Source of the DNA: Lachnospiraceae bacterium MD308
GTDB taxonomy: Bacteria; Bacillota; Clostridia; Lachnospirales; Lachnospiraceae
Reading direction: 5' to 3'
NCBI GenBank assembly: GCA_000403475.2
Contig: KE159795.1
Location: 930,983-994,982 of the forward strand
DNA: 64,000 nt
Positions 45,839 through 60,409 of this stretch are shown in pieces. Within the stretch, counting starts at the first letter, position 1; every line of letters begins with the position of its first letter. The notes under the pieces were generated by a model, which was not told the DNA's origin, made no database searches, and worked only from the letters and a program-made list of their open reading frames with translations. The position numbers and the translations under genes were made by a program.

Positions 45839-46216
45839 TTAAATGTAAATTGTCTTGATTATCCCGGCGATCCCCAGCCTTTCCGCAATCTCGGACAGCC
45901 GCTCTTTAATCATATCGTGGCTGTAATCATGACTCTGTAAGAACTCCTCGTTTTCCTCGCAAAGACGCAGATAAAACAGCACTGCCCGCTCTAACGCCCT
46001 GCTTTTATTTTGTTTCAGATCACGTAGAAGCTCTTCCTCCATCTTCAATATATCATCCATGCCATCCTGAATGTATGTTGTTTTATGAATATTATCTTCT
46101 GCCGTCTCATCGTCCACAATGTCTTTCAATGAATTTACATCCTTATTAAAAATAAGCTTTGCAATTACTCTCACTGCATCCTTGTTCATACGCATAATAT
46201 AATCCTGTTCATACAT
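45839..46216 (-). CDS. DUF6483-like small protein
   Basis: Soluble, mostly helical protein of 125 aa. The opening MYEQDYIMRMNKDAVRVIAK and K-L-I-F pattern fit the short DUF6483-type proteins of Lachnospiraceae, whose role is unknown. Start ATG 46216 follows GGAAGGAG; the frame to 46243 lacks a ribosome binding site. Its promoter carries a GCAACGAATTGTTTC dyad directly against the -35 box, the same arrangement as two secreted-protein genes 10-12 kb away, so it probably shares their regulator. Confidence 0.7.
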   Translation of the reverse strand: MYEQDYIMRMNKDAVRVIAKLIFNKDVNSLKDIVDDETAEDNIHKTTYIQDGMDDILKMEEELLRDLKQNKSRALERAVLFYLRLCEENEEFLQSHDYSHDMIKERLSEIAERLGIAGIIKTIYI

Positions 46217-46260: not shown

Positions 46261-46304
46261 ATTGTACATACTCAGTCACTAATATACAAGAAACAATTCG
46301 TTGC
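46261..46304 (-). promoter_or_regulatory. Promoter with GCAACGA-dyad operator, site A
   Basis: Minus strand GCAACGAATTGTTTC (46290-46304) abuts TTGTAT (46284-46289), then a 17-nt spacer and TACAAT (46261-46266). It drives the DUF6483-like gene. Same register as sites B and C. Confidence 0.7.
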
Positions 46305-46316
46305 TTTTTAACAATG

Positions 46317-47243
46317 TCATCTACAATTATTTTTTGAGAAGAGCGCCATCATAAATCTCACGTACACATACACTACAAACAGCACTGCAATAAACGTCTC
46401 GGCAAGCACTGCTACCTTAAGAACCGGCAAAGGGCATCCCATACCCGCAAGACACTCCACCGTCTGTTTTGCTGCAGTCGCACTAATTACAAACGGGAAT
46501 GTAAAAGCCGCCATACTGGGATAGAACGGGAGCTTTAAAAAGGTAACTGCTTTAACCAGCGCGAAAACATACAAAGTTGTCGACACCGTCAGCATTCCAA
46601 GCAAAAAAACCTTTGACTTCGGTGTCACTGACTGAATATATCCGACAATACAAAGACTCACAGGTGCAGCATAGATGCAGACCAATGATTTTGCTGACTC
46701 AGGTATTTCTTTTATGTTCAGATAGCGGTACGTAACCAGAACAAAAAGCGCACTCAGACAGACAAATCCGAACCAGAATGTCATATTTCCAATCCCCGGC
46801 CTTCCGTATACCGGCGCCGTGACCGCCGCCACCACAATTCCCACATACACGATATAATAGCTGGCAAATACCTTCTGCAGCTGGAGCTTAACAATAAAGT
46901 GCGCCGTAAAATAAATAATCAACGCAATGTGAAGTACAATGGCAAACATCCAAATATAAAAAGCCGCCCGCCCGACAAAGGGCTTTATATAAGTGCTCAA
47001 AAGCATCAAAGACATGGGAAATGTCCCTGCCACACTCGCCAAAATCGGATTACCCAGCTCCTCCTTTACTTTTCCATAGAAAAGCATCAGCTTGAGGAGC
47101 ACCAGCATAAGCAAAAAACCTGCAAATACCCCGCAGATGTAACGGATTATCTCCGAGTAACTCTGCAGGAGATTGCCAAGCGCCGCCGTCCCAAGCATCA
47201 CACCGCACACCGGAATAGATACTTTCTGAATCACATTTTTCAT
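46317..47243 (-). CDS. TDT-family transporter (TehA/SLAC1-like)
   Basis: Integral membrane protein of 308 aa with about ten hydrophobic helices, of the tellurite-resistance/dicarboxylate transporter family (pattern PFYPSMAAFTFPFVISATAA near the end and GNPILASVAGTFPMSLMLLS in the first third). Members move anions or weak acids. Start ATG 47243 follows GAGGTGG. It lies 54 nt after the sensor kinase of the Bce-like module and reads in the same direction, so it may be the last gene of that transcript or independent. Confidence 0.8.
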   Translation of the reverse strand: MKNVIQKVSIPVCGVMLGTAALGNLLQSYSEIIRYICGVFAGFLLMLVLLKLMLFYGKVKEELGNPILASVAGTFPMSLMLLSTYIKPFVGRAAFYIWMFAIVLHIALIIYFTAHFIVKLQLQKVFASYYIVYVGIVVAAVTAPVYGRPGIGNMTFWFGFVCLSALFVLVTYRYLNIKEIPESAKSLVCIYAAPVSLCIVGYIQSVTPKSKVFLLGMLTVSTTLYVFALVKAVTFLKLPFYPSMAAFTFPFVISATAAKQTVECLAGMGCPLPVLKVAVLAETFIAVLFVVYVYVRFMMALFSKNNCR

Positions 47244-47297
47244 CGCCGCCACCTCATCTCTTTTATCTCCTGCTTATTGTCTGCCAAATCCGCAAAA

Positions 47298-48332
47298 TTA
47301 TGATACCATCGGAAACAACAGCTCAATCCCGAATCCTCCATCTAAAATCCGCTCTTCCTCCACACGCACATCCACCGCCAGAACTTCGGCATACTTTTTC
47401 ACAAAATACAGCCCCATCCCTGTCGCATCCTGCCGTCCCGGATGATTGCCGGTAAAGCCTTTGTCGAACAAGAACGGAATATCCTCCTGCGGCACACCTC
47501 CGCCATTATCCCTGACGGCAAGATGAATCTTTCTCTTCTCTTTTTCTCCCTCTTCGTCCTCCCACCCGGCAATCTCCACGATTCCACCGGTTTTTCTCGT
47601 ATACTTAAACGCATTTCCAAGAATCTGAGACAACATAAAGGCAAGCACCCTGCGGTCGCTGACAATCCAGGACTGAGCCGCTTCCACACGGACGTCCACC
47701 CCTTTTTCCTCTTCCATTCCTGAAAACTCCTCCAGCACCTCCTCCACACATTCCGGTAAAAATATCTTCTCGAACCTGTAATCCACATGTTCAGCATGGA
47801 GCCTGGCATAATATAAAATCCGCTCCACATCCATCTCTGCCATGCGCTGCACATGCCGCATCCGGCGGTATACGTGGTCAGACATCTCCTCCCTGCGATT
47901 TTCCAAAACAAGCTCAGACAGGGACAGCGGCGTCTTGATCTCGTGTGTCCACGCCTCGATAAACTCCTGATAGTTCATAAGCTCCTGCTGCTTTTCACTG
48001 TTCTGTATCCGTTCCTTTGCAAGCACCCTGAACGCCTCCTTCAAAGTCTTATGCCACGCCTTATCCGCCACAGCCAAAAGCTCCTGCTCTTCGTATTCTC
48101 CCTGTCTTTCCAGGAAATCCTCCGCCGCACTGAGCCGCACATTTATCCTTACCTGGTCAATGGCGTAACCTAAAACCACGGACAGTAACGTATAAAGCAG
48201 AATGATAAAACCAAGGCTTTCCAACGCATCAGGATTTGCAAGCCACACAAGGAATACAAAAAAAACATCTGATAAAAGCAACAGGATGAGCCAATGCAGG
48301 CGCATCCTCAGACAGATACTCTTTCTCTTCAA
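47298..48332 (-). CDS. Sensor histidine kinase, BceS-like
   Basis: Intramembrane-sensing kinase of 344 aa with two N-terminal helices and almost no extracellular loop, then the H box EAWTHEIKTPLSLSELVLEN, N box QILGNAFKYT, and G boxes DNGGGVP and TGMGLYFV. Kinases of this kind sense antimicrobial peptides through the partner ABC transporter. The TTG at 48332 is the start: GGAGGTGA lies 7 nt upstream and the start overlaps the regulator's stop (TTGA), so translation is coupled. Confidence 0.9.
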   Translation of the reverse strand: MKRKSICLRMRLHWLILLLLSDVFFVFLVWLANPDALESLGFIILLYTLLSVVLGYAIDQVRINVRLSAAEDFLERQGEYEEQELLAVADKAWHKTLKEAFRVLAKERIQNSEKQQELMNYQEFIEAWTHEIKTPLSLSELVLENRREEMSDHVYRRMRHVQRMAEMDVERILYYARLHAEHVDYRFEKIFLPECVEEVLEEFSGMEEEKGVDVRVEAAQSWIVSDRRVLAFMLSQILGNAFKYTRKTGGIVEIAGWEDEEGEKEKRKIHLAVRDNGGGVPQEDIPFLFDKGFTGNHPGRQDATGMGLYFVKKYAEVLAVDVRVEEERILDGGFGIELLFPMVS

Positions 48333-49003
48333 ATCCCCGTCACCTCCAGACAATAACCGCTCCCTCTCACCGTTTTCACCATATGCTTAAGCCCTATGCT
48401 GTCCAGGTTCTTTCTGAGCCTTGTCATATTCACCTGAAGAATATTCTCATCTACATATCCGCCCCCATCCCACAGCTCGTCCATCATCTCCTGCCTGCTC
48501 ACCACAGACGGGTAACGCTCCATAAGCATCCCCAAAATCTTCCCTTCCGTCTCAGGCAGTGAAACATGCTTTTCCTCGAAAATAACTCTGTATGTATCGA
48601 TATCCAGCACCACATCCCCTGCCCGTACCAGGTTGCGCACCTCCCTGTACGTCTCAAGGAGGCGCTTAATGCGCGCCCCAAGACGCTTCGGGTGGCATGG
48701 CTTAGTAAGGAAATCATCTGCCCCAAGCCCCAGGGCGCAAAGCTCATCCGCCAACGCATCCCGGGCCGTGAGGATAAGAATTGGTACGGACAATCGGGCT
48801 TTCAGCGCTTTACACAGCTCAAACCCCGATTTCCCGGGAAGGTTCACATCCAGAAGGATTAAGTCGGATTCATTTTCCAGTATCTCCCGCTCCGGCTCTT
48901 CAAAAGAAGAGATACTCACCACCCGATACCCTTCCCTCTCAAGCGCACGTTCTAGCTCTTCCCTCAGATAAATGTCATCTTCAACAACTACAATCGTACT
49001 CAA
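48329..49003 (-). CDS. OmpR-family response regulator, BceR-like
   Basis: Regulator of 224 aa: receiver with acidic pair at 9-10, phospho-acceptor Asp52 (LLDVNLPG) and Lys in FLTKPCHPKRLGARI, then a winged-helix domain ending HMVKTVRGSGYCLEV. It pairs with the kinase that overlaps its 3' end. The CTTACA-N5-TGTAAG dyad upstream of the ABC ATPase gene is a likely binding site. Confidence 0.92.
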   Translation of the reverse strand: MSTIVVVEDDIYLREELERALEREGYRVVSISSFEEPEREILENESDLILLDVNLPGKSGFELCKALKARLSVPILILTARDALADELCALGLGADDFLTKPCHPKRLGARIKRLLETYREVRNLVRAGDVVLDIDTYRVIFEEKHVSLPETEGKILGMLMERYPSVVSRQEMMDELWDGGGYVDENILQVNMTRLRKNLDSIGLKHMVKTVRGSGYCLEVTGI

Positions 49004-49013
49004 ACTCCGCCTC

Positions 49014-51056
49014 CTATCTTACATTCAGGCTCCGTATATCCTTGCGGCCTGCTTTTTCTATTATCATAACATATATCATCTGCATTGCAATAAATACGGC
49101 AAAAACCGCTCCTGTAAGAATCAGGACATTTTTCACCGACGCCCCTTCCGGCAGTCGCAAAAAACCATTGAACATAGACCATATGGCAAATACAGCGCTC
49201 ACCGACGATACCACAAGCACCATGCCGGAAAAAAGATAAATCTGCTTTGCTAAGGAGCGGCAAAGCTCTCCTGTATCTGCCCCAAGCATCAGGAGAGTGC
49301 GGTACCGTTTCCGGTTCGCCTGCTGCTGCATCATGTATTTCAGAGCAAGAGATGTATTGGCAATAATCATGAACAACACGCCAAGGTAGATTGTAATATA
49401 GCTCCCCGCAACAGTATAAAACAACCGCCTTCCGATTCCGGAAAGATAACTCTCACAGACAAGTCCCTTTTCCTGAAAAAGAGCCGATGCCTCCTTAAGC
49501 GTCTGCATAAACCCGTCCTTATCCGTCAGTTTCTTATTTAACAGAGCATTGTAACAGAACAGTCTGTCCTCCTCCGACACAATCTCCTGGTACATTTCGT
49601 CAGGAACGATAAATGCCTTTTCCAAGGTTATCTGACGGTCAGCAACGACATTGTCATAATAAACATCCTCAAGGAACTGATACCTTTCCCCGTCTACCTC
49701 GATATACGCCCCGTTTTTCAGCGCGCCGCGATATACATCTCCACGATCCGGATATTCCCGCATGGAGGTGTAAAATGCGATTTCGCCGGCTCTGAGCCTT
49801 ATCTTTTTCTTTCCCACCGCCTCAAGGACATGGTTGTAACTAGACTGGGCGATGAAATACTCATACCCCTCCCGATCCTCCATATATTCAATAACATTTT
49901 CCTGGATTTCCTTATTTTTTACATCTTTTAACGTCTCGGCAGCCCGCCTAAGCCCCTCTAGCGATACCTTGTGCGCCTCTGCATCCACAACGCCCAGATA
50001 CACCGGATAGTATTCAGAAATATACGTCTTGCACTCCGGGCTTTCAAGCACCTCAATAGCGTCTCCCTCACTGTCCTGAATGGAAAAATCCGTTGTCTTC
50101 ACTGTCGCCGCCTGTGAGCTTACCACCGTTCCAATCCCGTAAGAGACACAGGACAGCGCGATAAGAAAAAGCAGGCTTGACACCGCCAGCGTCTTATACT
50201 GGCAGAGAACATTCTCCTGTATCTGCCTTCCCGTAAATGTATAAAGTCCCGACTTTCCCGGACCCTTCTTTCGGATTCTCCTCCCGATAGCTGCACCGGC
50301 ACCCCGGTATAAAAGAAAAGTTCCGCCGGCACCCAGAATCAGGACGAGCAGGACAACCATCACATCAAAACTTCCAAGCGCCGCAACCCCCAGTGCATAA
50401 GCTGCCCCCAGCATGATACACCCTGCTGCAAAGAAAGTGAGGTTTCCTTTTCCTGCTGCCATCTCCTGCGTATCCGCCGCATCGGGCTTTAAAAGCTGCG
50501 CCGGCTCTGTGCGGGCGAACCTGACGCTCAAAATCAGCATGGAGATAAGCTGTATCGCCGCAAAGCCGGCAGCTGTCCATACCACTGCCGGAAATGACCA
50601 CGTCACTTCATGTCCGATGATTCCAAGCCCAACCACCTTTACCGTAGTCAGGCTGATGCCCTCCGTGAGAAGGAGCGCAGCCGGAATGCCGATTGCCAGA
50701 GAGATCAGACTGTTAAGCAGCGTCTCCCCTATCAGCATCGCAAACATCCTGCTCCTTTTCATGCCAAGCATCAGATACAGCCCCAGCTCCTTTTTCCGCT
50801 CATTTAACTGGTAATGATAAGAAAAATACACGAGGAAAAATACAAAAAACAACGACACCGCATAGACCAGCGGAATCAACAACATCAGTTTTCTCACCGC
50901 CTCGCTCTCAATCGTCTTTAAAAACCGCATAACATCTTGCTCACCCAACGACAAAAGAGTGTAAAACGCAATCACTGCAATCACCAGGGATGCAAAAAAC
51001 AATCCGTTGCTCTTTCGGTTTCTCGCGGCGTTGCGCCTAATCTGACTAAAGAACAT
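49014..51056 (-). CDS. FtsX-type ABC transporter permease, BceB-like
   Basis: Membrane protein of 680 aa with the 10-helix BceB plan: one N-terminal helix, a group of helices, a large extracellular domain of about 200 residues (roughly 310-540), then the last helices. FtsX-like segments LNERKKELGLYLMLGMKRSR and QQQANRKRYRTLLMLGADTG are present at both halves. It senses and detoxifies peptide antibiotics with the ATPase. Start ATG 51056 follows GGAGGAGG and overlaps the ATPase gene's end by 11 bp. Confidence 0.9.
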   Translation of the reverse strand: MFFSQIRRNAARNRKSNGLFFASLVIAVIAFYTLLSLGEQDVMRFLKTIESEAVRKLMLLIPLVYAVSLFFVFFLVYFSYHYQLNERKKELGLYLMLGMKRSRMFAMLIGETLLNSLISLAIGIPAALLLTEGISLTTVKVVGLGIIGHEVTWSFPAVVWTAAGFAAIQLISMLILSVRFARTEPAQLLKPDAADTQEMAAGKGNLTFFAAGCIMLGAAYALGVAALGSFDVMVVLLVLILGAGGTFLLYRGAGAAIGRRIRKKGPGKSGLYTFTGRQIQENVLCQYKTLAVSSLLFLIALSCVSYGIGTVVSSQAATVKTTDFSIQDSEGDAIEVLESPECKTYISEYYPVYLGVVDAEAHKVSLEGLRRAAETLKDVKNKEIQENVIEYMEDREGYEYFIAQSSYNHVLEAVGKKKIRLRAGEIAFYTSMREYPDRGDVYRGALKNGAYIEVDGERYQFLEDVYYDNVVADRQITLEKAFIVPDEMYQEIVSEEDRLFCYNALLNKKLTDKDGFMQTLKEASALFQEKGLVCESYLSGIGRRLFYTVAGSYITIYLGVLFMIIANTSLALKYMMQQQANRKRYRTLLMLGADTGELCRSLAKQIYLFSGMVLVVSSVSAVFAIWSMFNGFLRLPEGASVKNVLILTGAVFAVFIAMQMIYVMIIEKAGRKDIRSLNVR

Positions 51057-51825
51057 TTGCACTTCCTCCTCCCAACTGTGATAAAACGGTTACAATGCGC
51101 TCATAAAATCGTTCCGTCGTCTCCGTCTCAACATTTCTTCTAAGCTCATGGAACAACCGCCCGTCCTGTATGAACAATATCCTTGAGCAGTAGCTTGCGG
51201 CATTGGCATCATGGGTGACCATCACAATAGTCCTCTCCTCCTCCTCGTTGATCGCCGACAGCCGGTCCATCAGCAATTTGGAATTCCTGCTGTCAAGGGA
51301 GCCAGTCGGCTCATCCGCCAGAACGATACTCGGATTCCCGATTAGCGCTCTCGCAGCCGCGACCCGCTGTTTCTGCCCTCCGGACATCTGGGACGGAAAC
51401 TTATCAAGCTCCTCCTCGATGCCAAAATGCCACGCAAGCTTTTTAAGCATCCCCTCTGCCTCCCTTCCTGTCATCCCGTGGAGCGACAGAGGAAAGATTA
51501 TATTCTCTCTGGCTGTCAGGTTGTCAAGAAGTTCAAACTCCTGAAATAAATACCCGATGGCCTTTCCCCGGTATCCTGAAAGCTCCCTTCCTTTAAATGA
51601 AGAGATATCCTCTCCCTTAAGCCGAATCTTTCCCGACGTCACCCGAATCATAGTGGCTATGCTGTTCAAAAGCGTCGTCTTCCCCGACCCGCTCGGCCCC
51701 ATAATCCCTAAGAATTCTCCCTCTAATACGTCAAAGCTGATTCCTTTAAGAGCCTTCGTGCAGTTTTCGCCTTTACCATATATTTTGATTATATTTTCAA
51801 CCTCTAACACCTTGTTGTAGTTCAA
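51046..51825 (-). CDS. ABC transporter ATP-binding protein, BceA-like
   Basis: ATPase of 259 aa with Walker A GPSGSGKTT, Q-loop YLFQEFELLDNLT, signature MSGGQKQRVAAARAL and Walker B IVLADEPTGSLDS. It belongs to the LolD/MacB-like group that partners FtsX-type permeases. It is the first gene of the bceA-bceB-regulator-kinase operon. The start is a TTG at 51825, 8 nt after AGGAGG; GTG 51810 is an alternative. Confidence 0.93.
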   Translation of the reverse strand: MNYNKVLEVENIIKIYGKGENCTKALKGISFDVLEGEFLGIMGPSGSGKTTLLNSIATMIRVTSGKIRLKGEDISSFKGRELSGYRGKAIGYLFQEFELLDNLTARENIIFPLSLHGMTGREAEGMLKKLAWHFGIEEELDKFPSQMSGGQKQRVAAARALIGNPSIVLADEPTGSLDSRNSKLLMDRLSAINEEEERTIVMVTHDANAASYCSRILFIQDGRLFHELRRNVETETTERFYERIVTVLSQLGGGSANVL

Positions 51826-51924
51826 CTCTCCTACCTCCTGTACGATATTTTTATTTCAGGTTGAGCACTCATTATTTCCTTTTTCCTGTAACATTATTGT
51901 AGCAAATGAACTATATATAGACCA

Positions 51925-51941
51925 CTTACAATCGCTGTAAG
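51925..51941. promoter_or_regulatory. Dyad operator upstream of the Bce-like operon
   Basis: CTTACA-ATCGC-TGTAAG, a perfect 6-bp dyad about 100 bp before the ATPase start and upstream of a TACAAT -10 box, the usual place for BceR-type activation. Binding is inferred. Confidence 0.6.
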
Positions 51942-51972
51942 GTTTTATCCCGGTCTTTTTTCCCACAACAAA

Positions 51973-52000
51973 TGATGCCGGGAAATCATCTCCCAGCATC
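51973..52000 (-). terminator. Hairpin downstream of the Rpn remnant
   Basis: GATGCTGGGA / TCCCGGCATC stem with one mismatch, 15 nt after the remnant's stop on the minus strand; probably its old terminator. Confidence 0.6.
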
Positions 52001-52014
52001 ACTCGGTCTTACTA

Positions 52015-52176
52015 TTATCCAAATAAAATTTCCTTTACTTCCTCTTCCCCCATGCTGCATATCCGGGCAATCTCTTCCGGCAGCTTGCCCTGCGCATGCA
52101 GGCGAAAAACTTTTCGACTTATTTCAATTCCCTGCTTTATTCCTTGCTTTTCTCCCATCTGAAATGAGCTGCTCAT
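52015..52176 (-). pseudogene. Remnant of an Rpn-type PD-(D/E)XK nuclease/transposase-like gene
   Basis: Fifty-three codons: MSSSFQMGEKQGIKQGIEIS, then RKVFRLHAQGKLPEEIARIC and EEEVKEILFG. The G-E-K-Q-G-I-K-Q-G-I repeat followed by a helix-turn-helix-like tail is how Rpn-type proteins end. No upstream nuclease domain is readable in any frame, so only the 3' end survives. The rest of 51826-52445 has the Bce promoter, two hairpins and no other gene. Confidence 0.6.
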
Positions 52177-52372
52177 CTATTTCTCTTAAAGAAAAATCAA
52201 ATGAGAAAGACTTTCTGATACTCTTATTTTATCATAAGTATGCCGCCAGAAAAAGCACAGATTTTCTTCAGGAAATATTCCGTAACATTTTGGAATCTTT
52301 GGCATGAAACTGCCAGATACATCCAGATGACCTCAGCAGCAAAGAATACTGCTGAAATGTATTTTAATTATA

Positions 52373-52403
52373 AAAGGGCCCACCACAAAAAGCAAGCCCT
52401 TCT
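52373..52403 (-). terminator. Terminator after the duplicated accessory genes
   Basis: AAGGGC ... GCCCTTTT hairpin on the minus strand, about 45 nt past the stop at 52446. The stem is short. Confidence 0.5.
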
Positions 52404-52445
52404 CTAAAAGTATCATCCGTAATAATAGTTTTTCCAGTAATTCCC

Positions 52446-52808
52446 TTAACAACTAGCAGGAATCCTTCTCACCCGGCACCATATAACAGTGCCATAAAGA
52501 GTAAACAACCATATCACACCAAGCAGCCAGTACTTAATCACTTTTTTATCACTTCCGAAATCCACAGCAACAATTTTTACGCCCTCCGTTCCATGTTCTT
52601 CGATTATATCATCAACTTGCGACTCTGTAATCTTTCCTCTGGCATTCGGCATAATTTCAACATTACGATATTCCCCGGATGTAATAATTTGTTCTTTATT
52701 TGTATCGTTAATATTCCGCTCTGAATTAATTTCTTTGACTAGCAGAATACTTAACGTGCATATCGTCACCGCAAAAATTATCATAATTATTTTTTCTAAT
52801 TTTTTCAT
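52446..52808 (-). CDS. Small two-helix membrane protein, copy 1
   Basis: Protein of 120 aa with an N-terminal helix (IIMIIFAVTICTLSILLV), an extracytoplasmic loop of about 60 residues and a second helix (YWLLGVIWLFTLYGTVIW). I do not recognise a family. The copy at 55206-55574 is almost identical, including most of the DNA. It ends the minus-strand series of lipoprotein and membrane genes. Start ATG 52808 has AAGGAG about 12 nt upstream. Confidence 0.7.
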   Translation of the reverse strand: MKKLEKIIMIIFAVTICTLSILLVKEINSERNINDTNKEQIITSGEYRNVEIMPNARGKITESQVDDIIEEHGTEGVKIVAVDFGSDKKVIKYWLLGVIWLFTLYGTVIWCRVRRIPASC

Positions 52809-52991
52809 TTACATCTCTCTCCTTTTTTATTCATAGTCGTAAATTCCTTCATTTACTTTTGTGCTCCTGTTCCTGAAAGCAAACGCTAATTCCGAAAGTC
52901 CCTGCTAACAGCATTCTTCACCAGTTAAACAATATCTCTTTTTCATAGATATGTACTGTGTTTCTCCGCATTAGCAATAACAAAATAAAAA

Positions 52992-53621
52992 TTATTTTTC
53001 ATAATCACATTTATAATGTTCCGTAGGTATCGCTTCAACTTCTCTAGCAGGAAGAAGATTCTTAGAAGCATCAACATATGTTCTGTATTCTTCATCCTTT
53101 TCTAATACTTCTTCTATATATTTTTCATCGGATTCAATTGAAGATATAAAATCTTCCGGTACCTCAAGCAGCAATGTCGAATTTGCTCCTATTACTGCTA
53201 ATTCCCCTTCTTCCGTTCCATATGCAGTAAAAATACAAACATCCCCTTCTTTTGGCAGAAAATCATCTTCATATACTTCGTAACAACTTCCGTCAACAGA
53301 TATTCCTCCCCTTTTAGTGATAGGAATATCTATATCCGTTCTCAATTCGCCCTTAAGATTTTTAATAACACGAATATCATAATTCGTGTATGGTCTTTCA
53401 CCGTCCTCATATTCACATCCATTATTCTTAACCACATTACCGACAAACGCATAATCTGCACTGCTGGTCAGCGCCACCGGATCATAAATATCCACATAAT
53501 ACGAGCCTGCTATTCTTTCTATAGGTAAATCCTTTTTCTCAGAAGTTTTCTTTTGCCCGCATGCTGTAAAAGTACAAATCATGGTACATAATAATATTGT
53601 ATAAAACAGTTTTCTCTTCAT
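52992..53621 (-). CDS. Lipoprotein of unknown function, copy 1
   Basis: Predicted lipoprotein of 209 aa; signal sequence MKRKLFYTILLCTMICTFTA, then lipidated Cys21. The mature part has DYAFVGNVVKNNG, followed by DIRVIKNLKGELRTDIDIPI and GDVCIFTAYGTEEGELAV, a beta-rich pattern that may be an OB- or NTF2-like fold; I cannot name it. The copy at 54209-54922 is about 75-80 percent identical by eye and has an extra acidic insert. Start ATG 53621 has only a weak AAGG upstream. Confidence 0.7.
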   Translation of the reverse strand: MKRKLFYTILLCTMICTFTACGQKKTSEKKDLPIERIAGSYYVDIYDPVALTSSADYAFVGNVVKNNGCEYEDGERPYTNYDIRVIKNLKGELRTDIDIPITKRGGISVDGSCYEVYEDDFLPKEGDVCIFTAYGTEEGELAVIGANSTLLLEVPEDFISSIESDEKYIEEVLEKDEEYRTYVDASKNLLPAREVEAIPTEHYKCDYEK

Positions 53622-53696
53622 ATTATATACTGCCTTTCTACTAATCTTTCTTTCAGCAAACAAATACTCCTACTCCTCAACCCACATATCACCGCC

Positions 53697-53736
53697 GTTT
53701 CTTAACTCTTATTCTATAATGTAACAGTTAAGAAAC
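53697..53736. repeat. Inverted repeat GTTTCTTAAC, copy 1
   Basis: GTTTCTTAAC and GTTAAGAAAC, perfect 10-bp arms around a 20-nt loop, between the membrane-protein and lipoprotein genes. The same structure occurs at 54992-55032 in the duplicate. It could be an attenuator hairpin or an operator. Confidence 0.7.
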
Positions 53737-53761
53737 AGCAGCGAATTGTATTAATATTTTC

Positions 53762-54199
53762 TTAAATTCTTCTTGAAGTTACTCTTTTGCTTTCATTTAT
53801 CCATCTTCGGATATCCCAGATAATAGCACTCCCAAGTATTATGACGTAAACGATAAAACAACGCTCAATAATTTGTACCATTGAATCTGAAAAGAATCCT
53901 GAAATGAGCAAACATAAAAGTGCTAATATCATACTTGAAAGCGTACCTCTGTAAATTCTGTTATCAATCGGATCTTTATACGCAATATACTGATTCTTGG
54001 GCACTGCTTTTTTGTATACGTACAAAACAATATCCAAAATAAGCATAATATTGATGACCACCGATGACATATCCATGATATCTGATGCAGGTTTAATCTC
54101 TGTAATATTTATCAGCAAAACTGCTATTAGAAAACAAATGATAATGCCTAACGTTGCTACCAACTGTATTCTTTTTCAGTTAGTCAATATCTTTTTCAT
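53762..54199 (-). pseudogene. Three-to-four-helix membrane protein with an early nonsense codon
   Basis: From ATG 54199, which has AAGGTG 5 nt upstream, the frame reads MKKILTN then UGA (54176-54178), then continues KRIQLVATLGIIICFLIAVL to a 133-codon open frame. The UGA at codon 8 probably replaced a sense codon such as TGG. Translation could restart at the TTG at 54163, so partial function is possible. The protein has helices near its start, middle and end and no recognised family. A shorter broken copy lies at 55024-55200. Confidence 0.6.
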
Positions 54200-54208
54200 A
54201 GTATCACC

Positions 54209-54922
54209 TTATTTTTCATAATCAGATTTATAATGTTCCATTGGTATCCCTTCAACATCTATAGCTGGAAGTACATTCTCAGAAGCATCAACATATGTTC
54301 TGTATTCTTCATTATTTTCTAATACTTCTTCTATATATTCTTCAATATTCTCATTATTTTCAGGAACCGTGTCCGAAAGCTCGTTCGAAGTCTCCCCATC
54401 ATCTGATGCCAAACTCAAACTATTTTCATTGGCTTCAATTGCAGATACAAAATCTTCCGGCACCTCAAGCAGCAGTGTTGAATTCGGTCCTCCCACTGAT
54501 AATTCACCTTCTTCCGTTCCATATGCAATAAAAATACAAACATCCCCTTCTTTTGGCAGGAAATCATCCTCATATACTTCATAACAACTTCCATCAACAG
54601 AAATTCCTCCCCACTTAATGATTGGGATATCTATATCTGTTCTTAATTCATTCTTAAGGTTTTTAATAACACGTATATCACAATTGGTATATGGTCTTTC
54701 ACCATCCTCATATTCATATCCTTTTTTCTTGACCACATTACCGATAAATGCATAATCTGCACTGCTAATCCGTACCACCGGGTCATAGAAGTCCACAAGA
54801 TATGAACATGCTATTCTTTCTATAGGCAGATCCTTTTCTTCAAAATTTTTCTTTTGTCCGCATGCTGTAAAAGCACAAATCATGGAACATAATAATATTG
54901 TATAAAACAGTTTTCTTTTCAT
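54209..54922 (-). CDS. Lipoprotein of unknown function, copy 2 (with acidic insert)
   Basis: Predicted lipoprotein of 237 aa; signal MKRKLFYTILLCSMICAFTA, lipidated Cys21. It matches copy 1 along its length except for an insert of about 30 residues rich in Ser, Asn, Asp and Glu near residue 170 (LSLASDDGETSNELSDTVPE). The stop is 9 nt before the ATG of the membrane-protein pseudogene, so the two were once coupled. Function unknown. Confidence 0.7.
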   Translation of the reverse strand: MKRKLFYTILLCSMICAFTACGQKKNFEEKDLPIERIACSYLVDFYDPVVRISSADYAFIGNVVKKKGYEYEDGERPYTNCDIRVIKNLKNELRTDIDIPIIKWGGISVDGSCYEVYEDDFLPKEGDVCIFIAYGTEEGELSVGGPNSTLLLEVPEDFVSAIEANENSLSLASDDGETSNELSDTVPENNENIEEYIEEVLENNEEYRTYVDASENVLPAIDVEGIPMEHYKSDYEK

Positions 54923-54991
54923 ACTGTATACTGCCTTTCTACTAATCTTTCTTTCAGAAAACAAATACTCCTCAACCCACACATCACCGCC

Positions 54992-55032
54992 GTTTCTTAA
55001 CTCTTATTCTATAAATAGAATCGTTAAGAAAC
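54992..55032. repeat. Inverted repeat GTTTCTTAAC, copy 2
   Basis: Same 10-bp arms as at 53697-53736 with a slightly different loop, placed in the same position relative to the lipoprotein gene. Part of the duplicated block. Confidence 0.7.
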
Positions 55033-55200
55033 AGCAGCGGATTGTATTAATATTTTCTTAAATTCTTCTATTTGTAGCATTAAATCTGAAAAGAATCCTG
55101 AAATGAGCAAACATAAAAGTGCTAATATCATACTTGAAAGTGTACCTCTGTAAATTCTGTTATCAATCGGGTCTTTATACACAATATCCTGATTCTTGAA
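55024..55200 (-). pseudogene. Fragment of the membrane-protein gene, copy 2
   Basis: Codes for YKDPIDNRIYRGTLSSMILA, then LLCLLISGFFSDLM, matching the middle of the gene at 53762-54199, but lacks both the N-terminal helix and the C-terminal region. It is joined directly to the end of the small membrane-protein gene at 55206, marking a deletion or recombination junction. Confidence 0.75.
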
Positions 55201-55205
55201 CACTA

Positions 55206-55574
55206 CTAACGACTGGCAGGAATCCTTCTCACCCGATACCATATAACAGTGCCATACAGAGTAAGCAACAATATCACACCAAGCAACCAGTACTTAATTA
55301 CTTTTTTATCACTTCCAGAATCCACAGCAACAATTTTTACACCCTCCGTTCCATGTTCTTCGATTATATCATCAACTTGCGACTTCGTAATCTTTCCTCT
55401 GGCATTTGGCATAATTTCAACATTACGATATTCCCCGGATGTAATAATTTGTTCTTTATTTGTATCGTTAATATTCCTATCTGAATTAATTTCTTTGACT
55501 AGCAAAATACTTAATGTGCATATCGTCACTGCAAAAACTATCATAATTTTTTTTTCTAATTTTTTATGCTCCAT
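55206..55574 (-). CDS. Small two-helix membrane protein, copy 2
   Basis: Protein of 122 aa, nearly identical to copy 1 at 52446-52808 (MEHKKLEKKIMIVFAVTICT at the start, VIWYRVRRIPAS at the end). Helices at residues 8-27 and 90-110. The start lies 19 nt after the stop of the upstream secreted-protein gene and has GGGAGAG before it, so they are co-transcribed. Function unknown. Confidence 0.7.
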   Translation of the reverse strand: MEHKKLEKKIMIVFAVTICTLSILLVKEINSDRNINDTNKEQIITSGEYRNVEIMPNARGKITKSQVDDIIEEHGTEGVKIVAVDSGSDKKVIKYWLLGVILLLTLYGTVIWYRVRRIPASR

Positions 55575-55593
55575 TTACATCTCTCCCTATTAA

Positions 55594-56490
55594 TTATGAT
55601 ATTTTAACATCTACTGAATATTCTATAGAATGTGCTGGCTTCTTTATAATTGCAGTTTTTGTACCTATTACAGCATTTGTCTTTGCATTTATTTTACTTT
55701 GAGTTCTTTTACATTTTTGTTTGTATGACCTTATATAAAATTTTCTACAATTTTTCCCAGCTTCCATATTCCTTGAAGCATATTTCACTTGACTTTTAAA
55801 CGTTACAGACGCTGAAATTCCGCTTGCCACAGATGTTGTATAATACTCTCCTCCTAATTCTCGTTTGCAAGTCAGAGTAACTTTACTCGAAAGCACCTTT
55901 TCCTGCCCTTTTGCAACGGATGTAATAAGTTTATCTTTATCTTTATACGGTTTACCGATATTTATGATTTTGCCATTCCGATACGTATATCCATAACCCT
56001 TTGGAGATATCGTTTCTGTTTTCAAATCATCTTCGTCATACCCTTCTTCATCTAATTCTCCCGCTTCTTTGTAATCAGATATAGTTACATAATCTCCATC
56101 GCCTACTGTTTCCGAATCCACAATATCTTGTACTATTTCTGAATCAATCTTTTCAAGAATCTCCGGATTAACTTCAACCCCTGCTACTTTCCCGTTATCA
56201 TAAACAAATAATGCTTTTTCTACCGATTCGAATAAATCTTTTTCCGCTAACGTGTCATTAGAAACAATACAGATTTCATTTTTCTTTTTTGACTCTGCAA
56301 TTTCTAATGCCGTCTCAATATCTTCAGTGGTAATATCTCTTTGAACATTCTTTTCCATTCTAATTACTGGCTCACTTTTCGAGAACACATATTCTGAACC
56401 TTCCGCCGCTTGGGACGAACCTGTATAGAATAAACACCCCGCCAATGCCAAACATATTGTATTTACAATCTTTTTTCTTCTTATCTTCAT
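55594..56490 (-). CDS. Secreted protein of unknown function
   Basis: Exported protein of 298 aa with signal peptide MKIRRKKIVNTICLALAGCL followed by FYTGSSQAAEG. The first mature half is acidic and helical; the second half is basic and beta-rich, with CKRELGGEYYTTSVASGISA and paired Cys residues. No family recognised. Start ATG 56490 follows AGGAG; the frame to 56571 lacks this. It is the first gene of the minus-strand accessory series and is driven by a promoter with a GCAACGA dyad at the -35 (site B). Confidence 0.7.
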   Translation of the reverse strand: MKIRRKKIVNTICLALAGCLFYTGSSQAAEGSEYVFSKSEPVIRMEKNVQRDITTEDIETALEIAESKKKNEICIVSNDTLAEKDLFESVEKALFVYDNGKVAGVEVNPEILEKIDSEIVQDIVDSETVGDGDYVTISDYKEAGELDEEGYDEDDLKTETISPKGYGYTYRNGKIINIGKPYKDKDKLITSVAKGQEKVLSSKVTLTCKRELGGEYYTTSVASGISASVTFKSQVKYASRNMEAGKNCRKFYIRSYKQKCKRTQSKINAKTNAVIGTKTAIIKKPAHSIEYSVDVKIS

Positions 56491-56635
56491 ATTTTTTCCA
56501 CTCCTATCTTCATATTTTTGTTTTTTTATTTTCTTAGCACTTTTATTGACCTTTGCTCCTTCCTCGTACATATATTTGCTTTGTGAACTCGTAATTGTTC
56601 ATACGATGTACTTCTGTATGTGCCTTACACTTCAC

Positions 56636-56679
56636 ATTATGCACAAAGACACCCCATCGCACAAGAAACGTATCGTTGC
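56636..56679 (-). promoter_or_regulatory. Promoter with GCAACGA-dyad operator, site B
   Basis: Minus strand GCAACGATACGTTTC (56665-56679) abuts TTGTGC (56659-56664), then a 17-nt spacer and CATAAT (56636-56641). It drives the secreted-protein gene at 55594-56490. Confidence 0.75.
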
Positions 56680-56685
56680 TCTCTG

Positions 56686-56767
56686 TCAATGATTCGTTGC
56701 TCTGCACCCCGGCAACCAATTGTTGCCTATATTTGCTGTAAATATCAAATATGCAACGATTCGTTGC
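56686..56767. promoter_or_regulatory. Three further GCAACGA dyads in the divergent intergenic region
   Basis: Minus-strand copies GCAACGAATCATTGA (56686-56700, exactly 21 bp from site B), GCAACAATTGGTTGC (56712-56726) and the perfect dyad GCAACGAATCGTTGC (56753-56767). With site B they make a cluster of four in the 384-bp gap before the XRE gene. Confidence 0.75.
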
Positions 56768-56811
56768 CCCCTTGATTTATACAGCACTCCGCCCTCTACA
56801 GCGCTGCACTC

Positions 56812-56841
56812 TTGACCCGCACCACAGACATATGATATATT
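56812..56841 (+). promoter_or_regulatory. Promoter of the XRE regulator gene
   Basis: TTGACC (56812-56817), 18-nt spacer, TATATT (56836-56841), 33 nt before the start. The perfect dyad at 56753-56767 lies 45 bp upstream. Confidence 0.55.
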
Positions 56842-56874
56842 ATTCACAGAGGAAAATTCAGGAAGGATAAAGGC

Positions 56875-57453
56875 ATGGACAACACCACAGATTTCTATGT
56901 AAGATTAAAAGAAGCCCGCCAAAAAAAGGGGCTTTCACAGGCTGATGCTGCTGATAAGCTGAATGTATCCAGACAGGCGATTTCCCGTTGGGAAACGGGA
57001 AAAGGTTTTCCAGACATTAACTTTTTGACCCCTATCAGTGAATTATATGATATATCTATAGATGAATTACTCGGACACAACATCTCTGTGTCCGAGTATG
57101 AATTGCCGGATATAGAAGAGAGGATGTTCAAATCAGATGAAACATCCCCAGATCCGTCTTTACCAGATGATAATGACAAAACACCTGCTTCTACATCTTC
57201 ACATATTAAGAACATTTTCAATCGAGAATATATTTTTTTAATATTACTGTTAGTTATATCCAATTTTAATACTTTTATAGGCTTAATCGTATCTATATAT
57301 GTTTTTGTTTGGACTTGGCGAAACAGAAGACATTATAAGCTGATCCTCGTATTATCTGTAATTTGCATTTTACTTGAACTAAATAATTTATACCAAGTTA
57401 TTGATGTATTTCTTCCATATAACTATTCTATAACAGTAGAAGAAATTTCATAA
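56875..57453 (+). CDS. Membrane-anchored XRE-family transcriptional regulator
   Basis: Protein of 192 aa. Residues 8-65 are an XRE helix-turn-helix (RLKEARQKKGLSQADAADKL, then NVSRQAISRWETGKGFPDI), residues 75-115 an acidic linker, and residues 118-190 contain three hydrophobic segments (FLILLLVISNFNTFIGLIVS), so DNA binding would take place at the membrane. RBS GAAGGATAAAGGC precedes the ATG. It lies between the two secreted-protein genes whose promoters carry the GCAACGA dyad and is the best candidate to bind it. Confidence 0.85.
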   Translation: MDNTTDFYVRLKEARQKKGLSQADAADKLNVSRQAISRWETGKGFPDINFLTPISELYDISIDELLGHNISVSEYELPDIEERMFKSDETSPDPSLPDDNDKTPASTSSHIKNIFNREYIFLILLLVISNFNTFIGLIVSIYVFVWTWRNRRHYKLILVLSVICILLELNNLYQVIDVFLPYNYSITVEEIS

Positions 57454-57478
57454 TAACCTGCTCATTAGTGGCAAATTA

Positions 57479-57988
57479 TTATGAACTTTTAACTATTAAT
57501 CTCTTATTTAGAATCTTAGCTACCACTTTTGAATTCTTTTTGACTGTTGCAAAGCTATATTTAAAAGAAAGTGTTGCCTGTGCATCGCTTTCTTTTAATA
57601 ACCTCATATTGCTAATACTTCCCTTTGTCACTTTATAAAATTTGTCATGTGCCCTCGTAATTCTATTGTTATTAACGTCTATATAAAATCCTGCTGTCCA
57701 CTTTTCCCTATACCTTCCAGTTATTTTATATGTTTTACTCGCTACCCTAACCTTCCCAGGCACTTCCTCTACTATAATCTCTGTCTCTTCTCCGTCTTCA
57801 TCCACGATTTCAAAGCTCTGTGTACCGCCCTTTTCCAAATCATACTCTACCGATTCCTGTATATCGATTTCGGCTCCATCCTCATTAACATCCTGCGCGT
57901 TTACTGCTCCTGCCGGAACAACTGCCATCACTGCGCACAATCCCAGACTCACAACAATTCGTTTCATTTCTTTCATTCTTATTCCCAT
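57479..57988 (-). CDS. Secreted DUF5626-like protein
   Basis: Exported protein of 169 aa: signal peptide in MKRIVVSLGLCAVMAVVPAG ending near AVNAQD, then a mature domain with SVEYDLEKGGTQSFEIVDED, EVPGKVRVASKTYKITG and AGFYIDVNNNRITRAHDKFY, which resembles the DUF5626 proteins of Lachnospiraceae. Function unknown. Start ATG 57988 follows GGGAGG. It is convergent with the XRE gene and carries the GCAACGA dyad at its -35 (site C). Confidence 0.7.
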   Translation of the reverse strand: MGIRMKEMKRIVVSLGLCAVMAVVPAGAVNAQDVNEDGAEIDIQESVEYDLEKGGTQSFEIVDEDGEETEIIVEEVPGKVRVASKTYKITGRYREKWTAGFYIDVNNNRITRAHDKFYKVTKGSISNMRLLKESDAQATLSFKYSFATVKKNSKVVAKILNKRLIVKSS

Positions 57989-58046
57989 ACTCTTATCCTC
58001 CCTTGCTCTCTTTATCGCCATAAAGATTTTTCCTTTATTCTCAATC

Positions 58047-58090
58047 AGTATACGCCCTGGCATAAAAAAGCACAAGCAATCATTCATTGC
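58047..58090 (-). promoter_or_regulatory. Promoter with GCAACGA-dyad operator, site C
   Basis: Minus strand GCAATGAATGATTGC (58076-58090) abuts TTGTGC (58070-58075), then a 17-nt spacer and TATACT (58047-58052). It drives the DUF5626-like gene. Confidence 0.75.
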
Positions 58091-58128
58091 CCCCTGCCAC
58101 GCCCGTATTTCCGCCATTCTCCTGCATA

Positions 58129-58149
58129 GGGGCAACGAATCGTTGCCCC
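58129..58149. promoter_or_regulatory. Extended perfect GCAACGA dyad
   Basis: Ten-base arms GGGGCAACGA and TCGTTGCCCC around one base, 21 bp in all, 56 bp from site C and about 30 bp upstream of the MarR -35 box. It could serve both divergent promoters. Confidence 0.75.
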
Positions 58150-58179: not shown

Positions 58180-58240
58180 TTGACAAATCCTTTTCCTGCT
58201 GATATATTCTATATGTTAAAAATGTTGATTAATCAACATT
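58180..58240 (+). promoter_or_regulatory. MarR gene promoter and palindromic operator
   Basis: TTGACA (58180-58185), 17-nt spacer, TATATT (58203-58208), then AATGTTGATTAATCAACATT (58221-58240), a perfect 20-bp palindrome over the expected start of transcription. This is the typical self-repression site of a MarR protein. Confidence 0.8.
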
Positions 58241-58267: not shown

Positions 58268-58744
58268 ATGGTAGACAGATTCGAAAACCTGACAAGCGGT
58301 ATAACCCAAATCTATAAAAGCATCCAGAAGATCAAGCGCTGTCGGATGGATTCCCTTGGATTAAAGGGAACTCATGTCATGTGCCTCCATTATCTGTCCG
58401 AGTATCCAAAAGGACTGACTGCCGCTGACCTGTGCGGCAAATGTAAGGAAGACAAGGCGGGCATCTCAAGAATCTTGTCCGATCTTGAAAAAAACGGATT
58501 GATTGCCTATGAACAGCAGGGAACTGCGAAAGACGTCAAAAAATACCGCGCAAAAGCATCTCTCACTGCAAAAGGCAGGCAATACGCCAAAAAGATGACG
58601 AATCTTATCGTACATGCTACCATAGCCGGCGGTCAGGGAATCACCCCCGCAGAACGGGATACCTTCTACCGTATACTCTTTCAGATTGCCGATAATCTGA
58701 ACCATGTCTGTCAGAATCTCGAAAAACAGACAAAAAAAACTTAA
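58268..58744 (+). CDS. MarR-family transcriptional regulator
   Basis: Winged-helix regulator of 158 aa with the MarR core GLTAADLCGKCKEDKAGISR and ILSDLEKNGLIAYEQ, flanked by dimerisation helices. Start ATG 58268 follows AAGGAG; the frame to 58244 lacks one. A perfect palindrome lies just upstream and probably mediates autorepression. The downstream alcohol and aldehyde dehydrogenase genes read in the same direction, but an IS110 element now separates them, so any former co-transcription may be broken. Confidence 0.9.
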   Translation: MVDRFENLTSGITQIYKSIQKIKRCRMDSLGLKGTHVMCLHYLSEYPKGLTAADLCGKCKEDKAGISRILSDLEKNGLIAYEQQGTAKDVKKYRAKASLTAKGRQYAKKMTNLIVHATIAGGQGITPAERDTFYRILFQIADNLNHVCQNLEKQTKKT

Positions 58745-58846: not shown

Positions 58847-60109
58847 CTAAGAAACCAGTTGGGATTCAGAAATAATCCCTTCGCAGATTAGTAGTTTCTT
58901 AGCCTGCTTGATAGCTTTTTCCTTCTGCTTTTCTTTCAGAGGTTCAGGCATATCAATCTTGTATAAATCGGTCGGATTCCATACTTCACCAGCAGACAGC
59001 ATCTGGTAAATGGCAGTAAGGATCATCCGAGCGATTGCAATAATGGCTCGTTTTTTGCCACGGCGCTTCCTTATGCGTTCATATTTCTGTTTGTAGTAAG
59101 GCGATTTATCAGATTTCACGGCTGCATGAGCAACTTGTACTAATGCAGGTTTGAGGTAGACACCGGCACGTGTTATTCTGACGGATTTCTTCTTACCAGC
59201 AGATTCGTTGTTGCCGGGCGTTAATCCTGCCCAGCAGCATAAACGTTTGGAATCAGAAAACTGAGTCATATCGGTACCAATTTCAGAGATAATAGTAATG
59301 GCACTATTACGGTCAACACCTGGAATGGTACATAGTAACATGACAGCATTTTCATAGGGGGTAATCAAAGAATCAAGCATAGTGTCTATATCATTTATTA
59401 TAGATGTGATATAATCCATATGTGCGCGGATGAGGCGCATACGGTATTTTTGGGAATCAGTCATCTGGTACCCTTCGATGGATTCAATGACACTGTCAGA
59501 CTTCTTCTTTAGGGAACGAAGCAGTCTGGAAGCGATTTCTTCGTGGTTGATGGAATTGTCGGATTGCTCGATTAGATAGTCAATAACAGAGGTGGCTGAT
59601 TTTCCAAAGATATCGGAAACAACCGAATCTAATGCGACATTACAAACAGTAAGAGCATTCTGATATCTGTTCTTTTCGCTGGAACGGCAGGAGGTCAACT
59701 TGTAACGGTATCTTGTGAACTCACGCAGGATACGGATTGGTTTACAAGGAATATAACTTCCAGGAACCAGACCTAATCGAAATAACTCCCCAATCCACTT
59801 GGAATCCTTGGCATCGTCCTTGTTGCCTTTGACAGCTTTCACCCATTTGGGATTAGCGATGGTAACGTTAATATCGTTTTCCAAAAGGTTAAACACAGGA
59901 ACCCAGTATTTTCCGGTAGATTCCATGCAGACATCACGACATTTGTTTGCAATCAGCCATTCTTTGAATTGCAGGATAGAATTGTTGAAGGTGGAGAAAC
60001 GCTTCTTGTGGTAAGAGGGTTCGACTCCGGAAGTGGTTTTGATGATTGTTGCAACAAGAAAAGATTTGTGTACATCGATACCACAACAGGTTTGGTAAAC
60101 AACTTTCAA
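58847..60109 (-). mobile_element. IS110-family transposase gene
   Basis: DEDD transposase of 420 aa. The N-terminal RuvC-like domain has GIDVHKSFLVATI, CMESTGKYWVPVF and GNKDDAKDSKWIGELF (the D, E, D, D residues). The C-terminal Tnp20 domain has LLCTIPGVDRNSAITIISEI, FSDSKRLCCWAGLTPGNNES and the serine region SAGKKKSVRITRAG. The gene looks intact. I start it at the TTG at 60109 (LKVVYQTCCGIDVHK), 9 nt after AAGGAG. The element's ends are not marked by inverted repeats, as is normal for this family, so its borders are not defined here. Confidence 0.92.
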
Positions 60110-60409
60110 GGTCAAAAACTCCTTTCGGATTAAAATGGGAAAGAAGCCATTGACTGTCCCATCACACATTTAACAGAGAAGTTAAAACAATTTTTACTGT
60201 ACGGTCTTATAGAGCCACTCATTTGTGCTTGAAAGATGGGACTTACACTGATTATCATGCTGTCTAAAACGAAGAAAGCCTTTACGACTCGCCTCCTCGT
60301 GCTTTGTAGTGTAGCTTCTTTAAGAATTATTTTATCAGAAACGTGGAGAATTTGAAGACTTTCATTACTATTTGTGCCGCCGACTGAAGGCGGCGGAATG
60401 GAGATTATC
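60110..60409 (-). other. IS110 upstream non-coding region (candidate bridge RNA)
   Basis: About 300 bases between the transposase start and the alcohol dehydrogenase start, with no gene. In IS110 relatives the non-coding stretch before the transposase encodes the bridge RNA that selects donor and target DNA. A GCCGCC-GACTGAA-GGCGGC hairpin (60376-60396) lies at the dehydrogenase side. I could not fold the RNA or fix the element's end. Confidence 0.5.

Follow-up and report, generated by a model that had tools for sequence, protein, structure and literature searches.

Which protein reads a 15-bp dyad that is set against the −35 box of several promoters, and does it switch those promoters on or off? 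This question was raised by a 64,000-nucleotide stretch of the genome of Lachnospiraceae bacterium MD308 (GenBank assembly GCA_000403475.2, contig KE159795.1, positions 930,983 to 994,982), referred to here as the window; coordinates are those of the window unless a contig (C) or locus (L) is named. A first-pass annotation, made from the letters alone, had described three minus-strand promoters with the dyad directly 5' of TTGTRY and 17 nt between this −35 box and the −10 box, and the arrangement was confirmed base for base. The four additional dyads that it had placed in two intergenic regions were located at 56686, 56712, 56753 and 58132, the last with arms that are perfect over at least 10 bp (Table 1). 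We propose that the Xre protein encoded at 56875-57453, and perhaps its paralogue on contig C2 as well, uses the dyad as its operator, and that a dimer of the 56875 protein, which is probably membrane-anchored, likely switches on five promoters, three in the window and two elsewhere in the genome.

The window carried 8 matches to the dyad at up to three mismatches against 2.37 expected, a number reached in 1 of 100 shuffles; one of the 8 (57951) sits within the DUF5626 coding sequence. Across the whole genome (4,455,623 bases on 4 contigs), the perfect 15-mer occurred in three places (56753, 58132 and C2:621684) against 0.015 expected from base composition, and imperfect dyads were found in two places with one mismatch and in ten with two, four of these ten within the window. 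Outside the window, nine places had at most two mismatches: two with the −35/−10 register, the perfect dyad C2:621684, which stands 46 bp upstream of the register site C2:621730, five inside open frames and one on contig C3. The genome-wide search for the 15-mer and its promoter register, which had been proposed as a check, was informative at its strict end, where the perfect 15-mer was rare and five promoters emerged. At up to three mismatches it yielded 76 places against 83 for a reversed control pattern, hence no excess, and such loose matches were uninformative.

Both register sites outside the window precede genes of S8 subtilases. At C2:621730, the dyad is followed by TTGTGT, 17 nt and TAAGAT in front of a subtilase gene (L016:6804-7982), and at C1:1850542 by TTACAT, 17 nt and TATGTT in front of a gene that matches the S8 profile at positions 4-136 of 288 only; the two products are 43% identical over 208 aa. 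This second gene (L017:4672-5406), downstream of its dyad promoter, is truncated and seemingly decaying. Because both sites were found by the dyad alone, their register serves as an independent check. The earlier claim of an identical register at three unlinked promoters held for the register; "unlinked" was too strong and suits only the promoter at 46.3 kb, 10 kb from the other two, which are 1.4 kb apart in one cluster. Unlinked copies with the register do exist in the form of the C2 and C1 sites. A rule made of the dyad and the start of the −35 box, built on the five sites, matched exactly five places in the genome, and its reversed control none. Since the rule was fitted to those sites, this count is partly circular; the rarity of matches elsewhere is not, with 16 matches, never more than one per genome, in the 396 other genomes sampled from the family and 4 for the reversed control, as read from the results table. 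With one mismatch allowed, ten more places appeared, six of them one repeated 20-mer, and at the six loci checked (two repeated, four others) no −10 box at 17 nt matched better than 2 of 6 positions. Two mismatches gave 72 places, and the reversed control gave 25. Both ideas of the first-pass annotation, one regulator and a small regulon, were supported. On these sequence grounds, the putative regulon reaches beyond the window to two subtilase genes, and the dyad is not private to this genome.

A blind operator scan upstream of distant Xre genes connected the dyad with this kind of protein. Distant loci were gathered by two peptide patterns of the helix-turn-helix (HTH), and the best 80 loci were taken; the class is thus defined by that HTH and does not cover all Xre proteins. 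The scan covered 220 bp upstream of 73 non-redundant genes (76 loci minus 3 redundant, with the close loci L052-L055 excluded) and 3584 dyad types (256 four-base arms at 14 gaps). The top dyad was GCAA-N7-TTGC, found in 19/73 regions against 0.25 expected. The second-ranked TTGC-N6-GCAA (10/73 against 0.30 expected) corresponds to two such dyads 21 bp apart. In same-locus controls, GCAA-N7-TTGC preceded 3/581 genes, 2/289 genes with mostly intergenic upstream regions and 4/1152 open frames, the last being mechanical open frames with which the stricter 581-gene set agreed. The −35 box begins 21 bp past the dyad in nine of the 19 loci, every other offset being seen at most once, and a GCAA half-site exactly 15 bp ahead of the −35 box was present in 10/73 regions, compared with 1/581 control genes and 2/1152 open frames. 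The 56.6-kb promoter of the window (dyad, 6 bp, dyad, −35, 17 nt, −10) has the layout of these distant Xre promoters. A simple count of hydropathy placed one or more hydrophobic segments behind the HTH in 71 of 76 distant Xre proteins. Taken at the level of sequence, the dyad belongs to what appears to be a wider operator class common to other Xre proteins.

Relatives of MD308 showed which parts of these promoters are kept. When the DUF5626 promoter was compared with that of the relative G002, both dyads were identical at 14/15 positions, the −35 box at 5/6 and the −10 box at 6/6, whereas the 41 bp between the dyads agreed at 21/41 and the −35/−10 spacer at 9/17; lengths were unchanged, including the 56-bp dyad spacing. 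Because the footprint was kept at the dyads and the −10 box and had diverged between them, we see selection on these elements. The outer dyads of the 56.7-kb region, 88 bp apart in MD308, keep this distance in G003; in G002, whose proximal site falls at the extreme end of its contig, they stand 87 bp apart. One copy on contig C148 of G003 reads TTGTAG-N17-CATAAT, and spacers in L053 and L054 were 16 or 17 nt by eye. Within the genus, Xre orthologues were found in G000, G002 and G003, all three of which carry dyads in the cluster, and G004 (77% complete) and G005 had neither an Xre orthologue nor a dyad at up to one mismatch. For the DUF6483 promoter, partial matches only were seen in the genus, in G004 and G001.

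The Xre protein matched HTH_3 (PF01381) with 58.7 bits against a curated cut-off of 23. In its model (mean predicted local distance difference test, pLDDT, of 71), three helices spanned residues 109-129, 133-149 and 155-179 with mean hydropathies of 1.07, 1.49 and 1.73, and from this model the protein is likely membrane-anchored. A fold search with the model matched only the HTH among the best 50 matches listed, and 1066 plasmid records matched Xre, none across more than 80% of the query. The Xre gene is convergent (tail-to-tail) with the DUF5626 gene in the window. When DUF5626 was searched for in 299 genomes of the family and 392 of the order (overlapping samples), 10 genomes passed the cut-off, with 12 loci in all. 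Nine of these loci have a similar Xre gene convergent with DUF5626 and one has it on the same strand; at the remaining two it was not found. In a 398-genome sample of the phylum, MD308 alone was above cut-off. A second Xre-DUF5626 pair is present on contig C2, and in L053 the genes for a subtilase, a secreted protein, Xre and DUF5626 adjoin, the subtilase being 37% identical to that of C2 over 304 aligned columns. The Xre protein at 56875, already named as a candidate by the first-pass annotation, gained support from the co-occurrence of Xre orthologues and dyads in the genus, from the conserved DUF5626 linkage and from the blind scan, which came upon the same dyad in front of distant Xre genes.

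Table 1. Genes, promoters and dyads discussed for the window (for promoters, boxes are given in reading direction).
Feature	Position	Strand	Remarks
Dyad consensus (15 bp)			GCAACGAATCGTTGC, arms GCAAC-N5-GTTGC
DUF6483 protein (PF20092), regulon gene 1	45839-46216	-	E 3.2e-19
DUF6483 promoter	46261-46289	-	−35 TTGTAT (46284-46289), N17, −10 TACAAT (46261-46266)
Proximal dyad, DUF6483 gene	46290-46304	-	GCAACGAATTGTTTC; adjoins −35; lone site without distal dyad
Secreted protein, regulon gene 2	55594-56490	-	no Pfam family
Secreted-protein promoter	56636-56664	-	−35 TTGTGC, N17, −10 CATAAT
Proximal dyad, secreted-protein gene	56665-56679	-	GCAACGATACGTTTC; adjoins −35
Second dyad	56686-56700	-	6 bp upstream of proximal dyad; centres 21 bp apart
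Third dyad	56712-56726	undefined	GCAACCAATTGTTGC
Perfect distal dyad	56753-56767	undefined	between secreted-protein and Xre promoters; 88 bp from proximal dyad
Xre promoter	56812-56841	+	TTGACC-N18-TATATT, read directly; TTGACC-N18-TAYATT in two relatives
Xre, proposed regulator	56875-57453	+	HTH residues 3-65, disordered linker, three hydrophobic helices, short tail
Secreted DUF5626 protein (PF18540), regulon gene 3	57479-57988	-	145.3 bits against cut-off 26.7
DUF5626 promoter	58047-58075	-	−35 TTGTGC, N17, −10 TATACT
Proximal dyad, DUF5626 gene	58076-58090	-	GCAATGAATGATTGC; adjoins −35
Perfect distal dyad	58132-58146	undefined	56 bp from DUF5626 proximal dyad; perfect arms at least 10 bp

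The site, its register and conservation, the five promoters, the Xre-DUF5626 linkage and the operator of the Xre class, all of them computed, point to a dimer of this Xre protein as the probable ligand of GCAAC-N5-GTTGC. By geometry from the −10 box, the proximal dyad of the five promoters is centred at about −43 and adjoins the −35 box, and each of the five −35 boxes shares only 2 or 3 of its 6 bases with TTGACA. At three promoters (56.6 kb, 58.1 kb and C2), the proximal dyad is degenerate and the distal one perfect; the other two have a single dyad. We suggest that the perfect distal dyad would help to fill the weaker proximal dyad at those three promoters, and that the dimer centred near −43, ending at the poor −35 box, could contact RNA polymerase and turn the promoter on. 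The distal distances of 88, 56 and 46 bp hint at helical phasing, which is suggestive only. A signal at or across the membrane may act through the Xre helices. The predicted targets would be two secreted proteins (one of them the DUF5626 protein, related to Listeria Zea), the DUF6483 gene and the two related subtilases, one truncated. Activation rather than repression is favoured, by analogy, because the dyad stands at about −43 and all five −35 boxes are weak.

Several observations weigh against Xre as the activator at these sites. The exact dyad was absent from 54/73 distant Xre promoters, and among the 19 dyad-bearing loci two pairs encode related proteins (>60% identical). In nine distant Xre-DUF5626 pairs, neither gene was preceded by an exact GCAA-N7-TTGC, and the closest sequence was GCAACAAATTGTAAC, with four mismatches, in L064; this lowered our confidence slightly and ties the operator class to DUF5626 clusters in close relatives only. 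Distant pairs also had no exact 7-bp-arm palindrome common to both genes, and the two DUF5626 loci without Xre had no exact dyad. When a second set of 32 Xre genes (both strands, including close orthologues and DUF5626 loci) was sorted by the last helix residue, the dyad was present in 3/16 with K, 3/8 with N and 0/6 with R, two being of other types; a residue-to-base code of the recognition helix was rejected, as no clear rule emerged from these counts. The C2 Xre gene had no upstream dyad at up to three mismatches, and relatives differ in how far the dyad stands from the Xre promoter, so that autoregulation of Xre in this cluster is at best weakly suggested. Another copy on contig C148 of G003 has an 18-nt spacer, and the DUF6483 fragment of G004 (77% complete, without an Xre orthologue) showed no dyad upstream. 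Membrane insertion is something that we infer, from hydropathies of 1.07, 1.49 and 1.73. Finally, the self-promoters of distant Xre genes often have a good −35 box (TTTACA), which is compatible with repression too.

Repression would retain the same protein and the same operator: a dimer at the −35 box and a tandem dimer 21 bp upstream would block RNA polymerase until a signal releases it, the mode put forward for CylR2 at the cytolysin promoter. Near-consensus −35 boxes, frequent at the distant self-promoters, are expected of an autorepressor, and PMC3709268 describes CylR2 as a repressor whose binding is altered on induction. At the five target promoters, however, the dyad adjoins the −35 box without covering it or the −10 box, and each of these −35 boxes is poor. 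A repressing Xre is a serious minority option for us, and activation by Xre stays the preferred explanation.

A different reader of the dyad, the MarR-family protein encoded at 58268, is very improbable. The position of its gene next to the perfect dyad 58132 would suit such a role, as would the habit of MarR dimers of often binding dyads of similar size. The gene has, however, a perfect palindrome of its own, ATGTTGATTAATCAACAT (58222-58239), which lies just past the marR −10 box, is conserved in two relatives and is probably marR's own operator; on this ground MarR was rejected as the regulator. No MarR was seen in the open reading frame lists of the dyad-bearing C2 cluster, L053 and L054, which were gone through by reading and with no profile search, and the identical dyad stands upstream of distant Xre genes. 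Another reading, in which the sites would be a scattered palindromic repeat and no operators, could be drawn from G001, which has no Xre orthologue and 16 one-mismatch matches, of which the six inspected sit in a dispersed repeat. It is scarcely credible, since the own-genome sites differ in their flanks and have in common just the dyad, the −35 register and the spacing, and since the G002 footprint, with its selection on the dyads and the −10 box, contradicts it. The repeat of G001 (L039, L042, L044-L047) carries GCCACGAATCGTTGC, a mimic of the dyad. Rfam gave no match at gathering score in positions 40000-64000 of the window.

What the cluster makes was approached through the DUF5626 protein. 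A profile of 12 DUF5626 proteins had Lmo2686 (Zea) of Listeria as its sole match in the PDB (4K15, E 2.6e-8), and the DUF5626 model (pLDDT 77) superposed on 4K15 with a Z of 12.6 and a root-mean-square deviation of 2.3 over 102 aligned residues at 20% identity. From profile and model, DUF5626 is a distant homologue of Zea. By reading, the window protein opens with a signal-peptide-like stretch; its computed isoelectric point is 9.6 for the DUF5626 domain and 6.8 for the mature protein. RNA binding by the DUF5626 proteins of this cluster is, by analogy, a lead. A role as bile sensor was rejected, the matches to VtrC and ToxS having a Z of about 5, below the tool's meaningful level. No DUF5626 match at E 0.01 was found in phage records, and reading the locus as a defence system was dropped, as PADLOC matched only the HTH or the subtilase. 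The other secreted protein of the window was not accepted as a conserved family; the profile used for it had been made from the same two proteins that it then retrieved, and direct comparison with the L053 counterpart gave only E 0.005.

Some neighbouring features were also recorded. Behind the secreted-protein gene (52446-55574), small genes for lipoprotein-like and membrane proteins recur in sets; four of their products were tested and matched no Pfam family. L053 and L054 have other genes of this kind close to the cluster, and in L054 these are repeated. On reading, the stretch 47298-51825, which separates the DUF6483 gene from the cluster, seemed to encode a histidine kinase, a response regulator and an ATP-binding cassette transporter. 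Similar transposase genes, which we take to be IS110-like from their appearance, stand near both Xre-DUF5626 copies (58847-60169 and L016:8066-9334). Perfect GCAACG-N3-CGTTGC dyads were seen near Xre genes in L056, L058, L059 and L062 (Flavonifractor and a Clostridiales metagenome-assembled genome); in the Xre proteins concerned, the HTH is followed by a hydrophobic segment and, in three of the four, then by a large domain, and these loci look like a parallel regulon.

A match to such an Xre protein was present in 293/299 family genomes. In line with the earlier statement that no described regulator has this site, no description of such an operator class was found in the literature searched by title and abstract; nor was there, in that literature, any report of the operator or targets of such Xre proteins, or, with few subscription papers covered, any mention of DUF5626, of the helix string or of membrane-bound Xre wordings. 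A common operator in a fixed layout, if true, would make the regulons of such Xre proteins readable from sequence. It would also give the DUF5626 protein a regulatory setting and open a route to testing the role of a Zea-like secreted protein in a commensal. One could go further and picture a large membrane-anchored Xre class of Clostridia and Bacilli with GCAA-N7-TTGC and its layout in common, a one-component transmembrane switch that here would sense, on the surface of the cell, its own secreted Zea-like protein or a ligand of that protein, and drive secreted proteins and subtilases; this extension we regard as speculative and rather doubtful.

Among known systems, ImmR of ICEBs1, SinR and the 434 repressor share the HTH fold, ImmR (7t8i) most tangibly with E 3.1e-10 by sequence and 45% identity over the Foldseek match. 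In all three chains only the HTH was matched, and the recognition helix of ImmR is unlike that of Xre. Lambda cI acts at OR1/OR2-PRM as an activator with tandem dyads about two turns apart, its proximal site near −42 beside a weak −35 box. The present promoters resemble this arrangement in the cI-type HTH, the tandem dyads, a proximal centre beside a weak −35 box and a strong distal with a weaker proximal site. They differ in the 15-bp GCAAC-N5-GTTGC dyad, the hydrophobic helices after the HTH, the chromosomal secreted-protein targets and an activation that is only proposed. Zea is described in PMC6907008 as a secreted, oligomeric RNA-binding protein with a signal peptide, and PMC6686043 places its gene in the lmo2689-lmo2686 operon within the CesRK regulon. 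DUF5626 agrees with it by profile and fold to 4K15 and in the signal-peptide-like start of the window protein, whereas the identity in the fold match is 20%, the CesRK operon setting of Listeria is unlike the one here, and the hexamer and RNA binding are features of Zea. In the cytolysin system of Enterococcus faecalis, CylA is a subtilase. This system pairs an Xre-type protein, CylR2, with CylR1, a membrane protein of three predicted helices, and its regulator genes are divergent from the target operon, according to PMC3709268. Compared by components, it shares with our cluster an Xre-type protein, a three-helix part that is putatively in the membrane here, secreted products, a protease and divergent regulator genes, and it differs in that HTH and helices are joined in one chain here. 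By this analogy, of the systems compared, that of cytolysin comes closest in its components.

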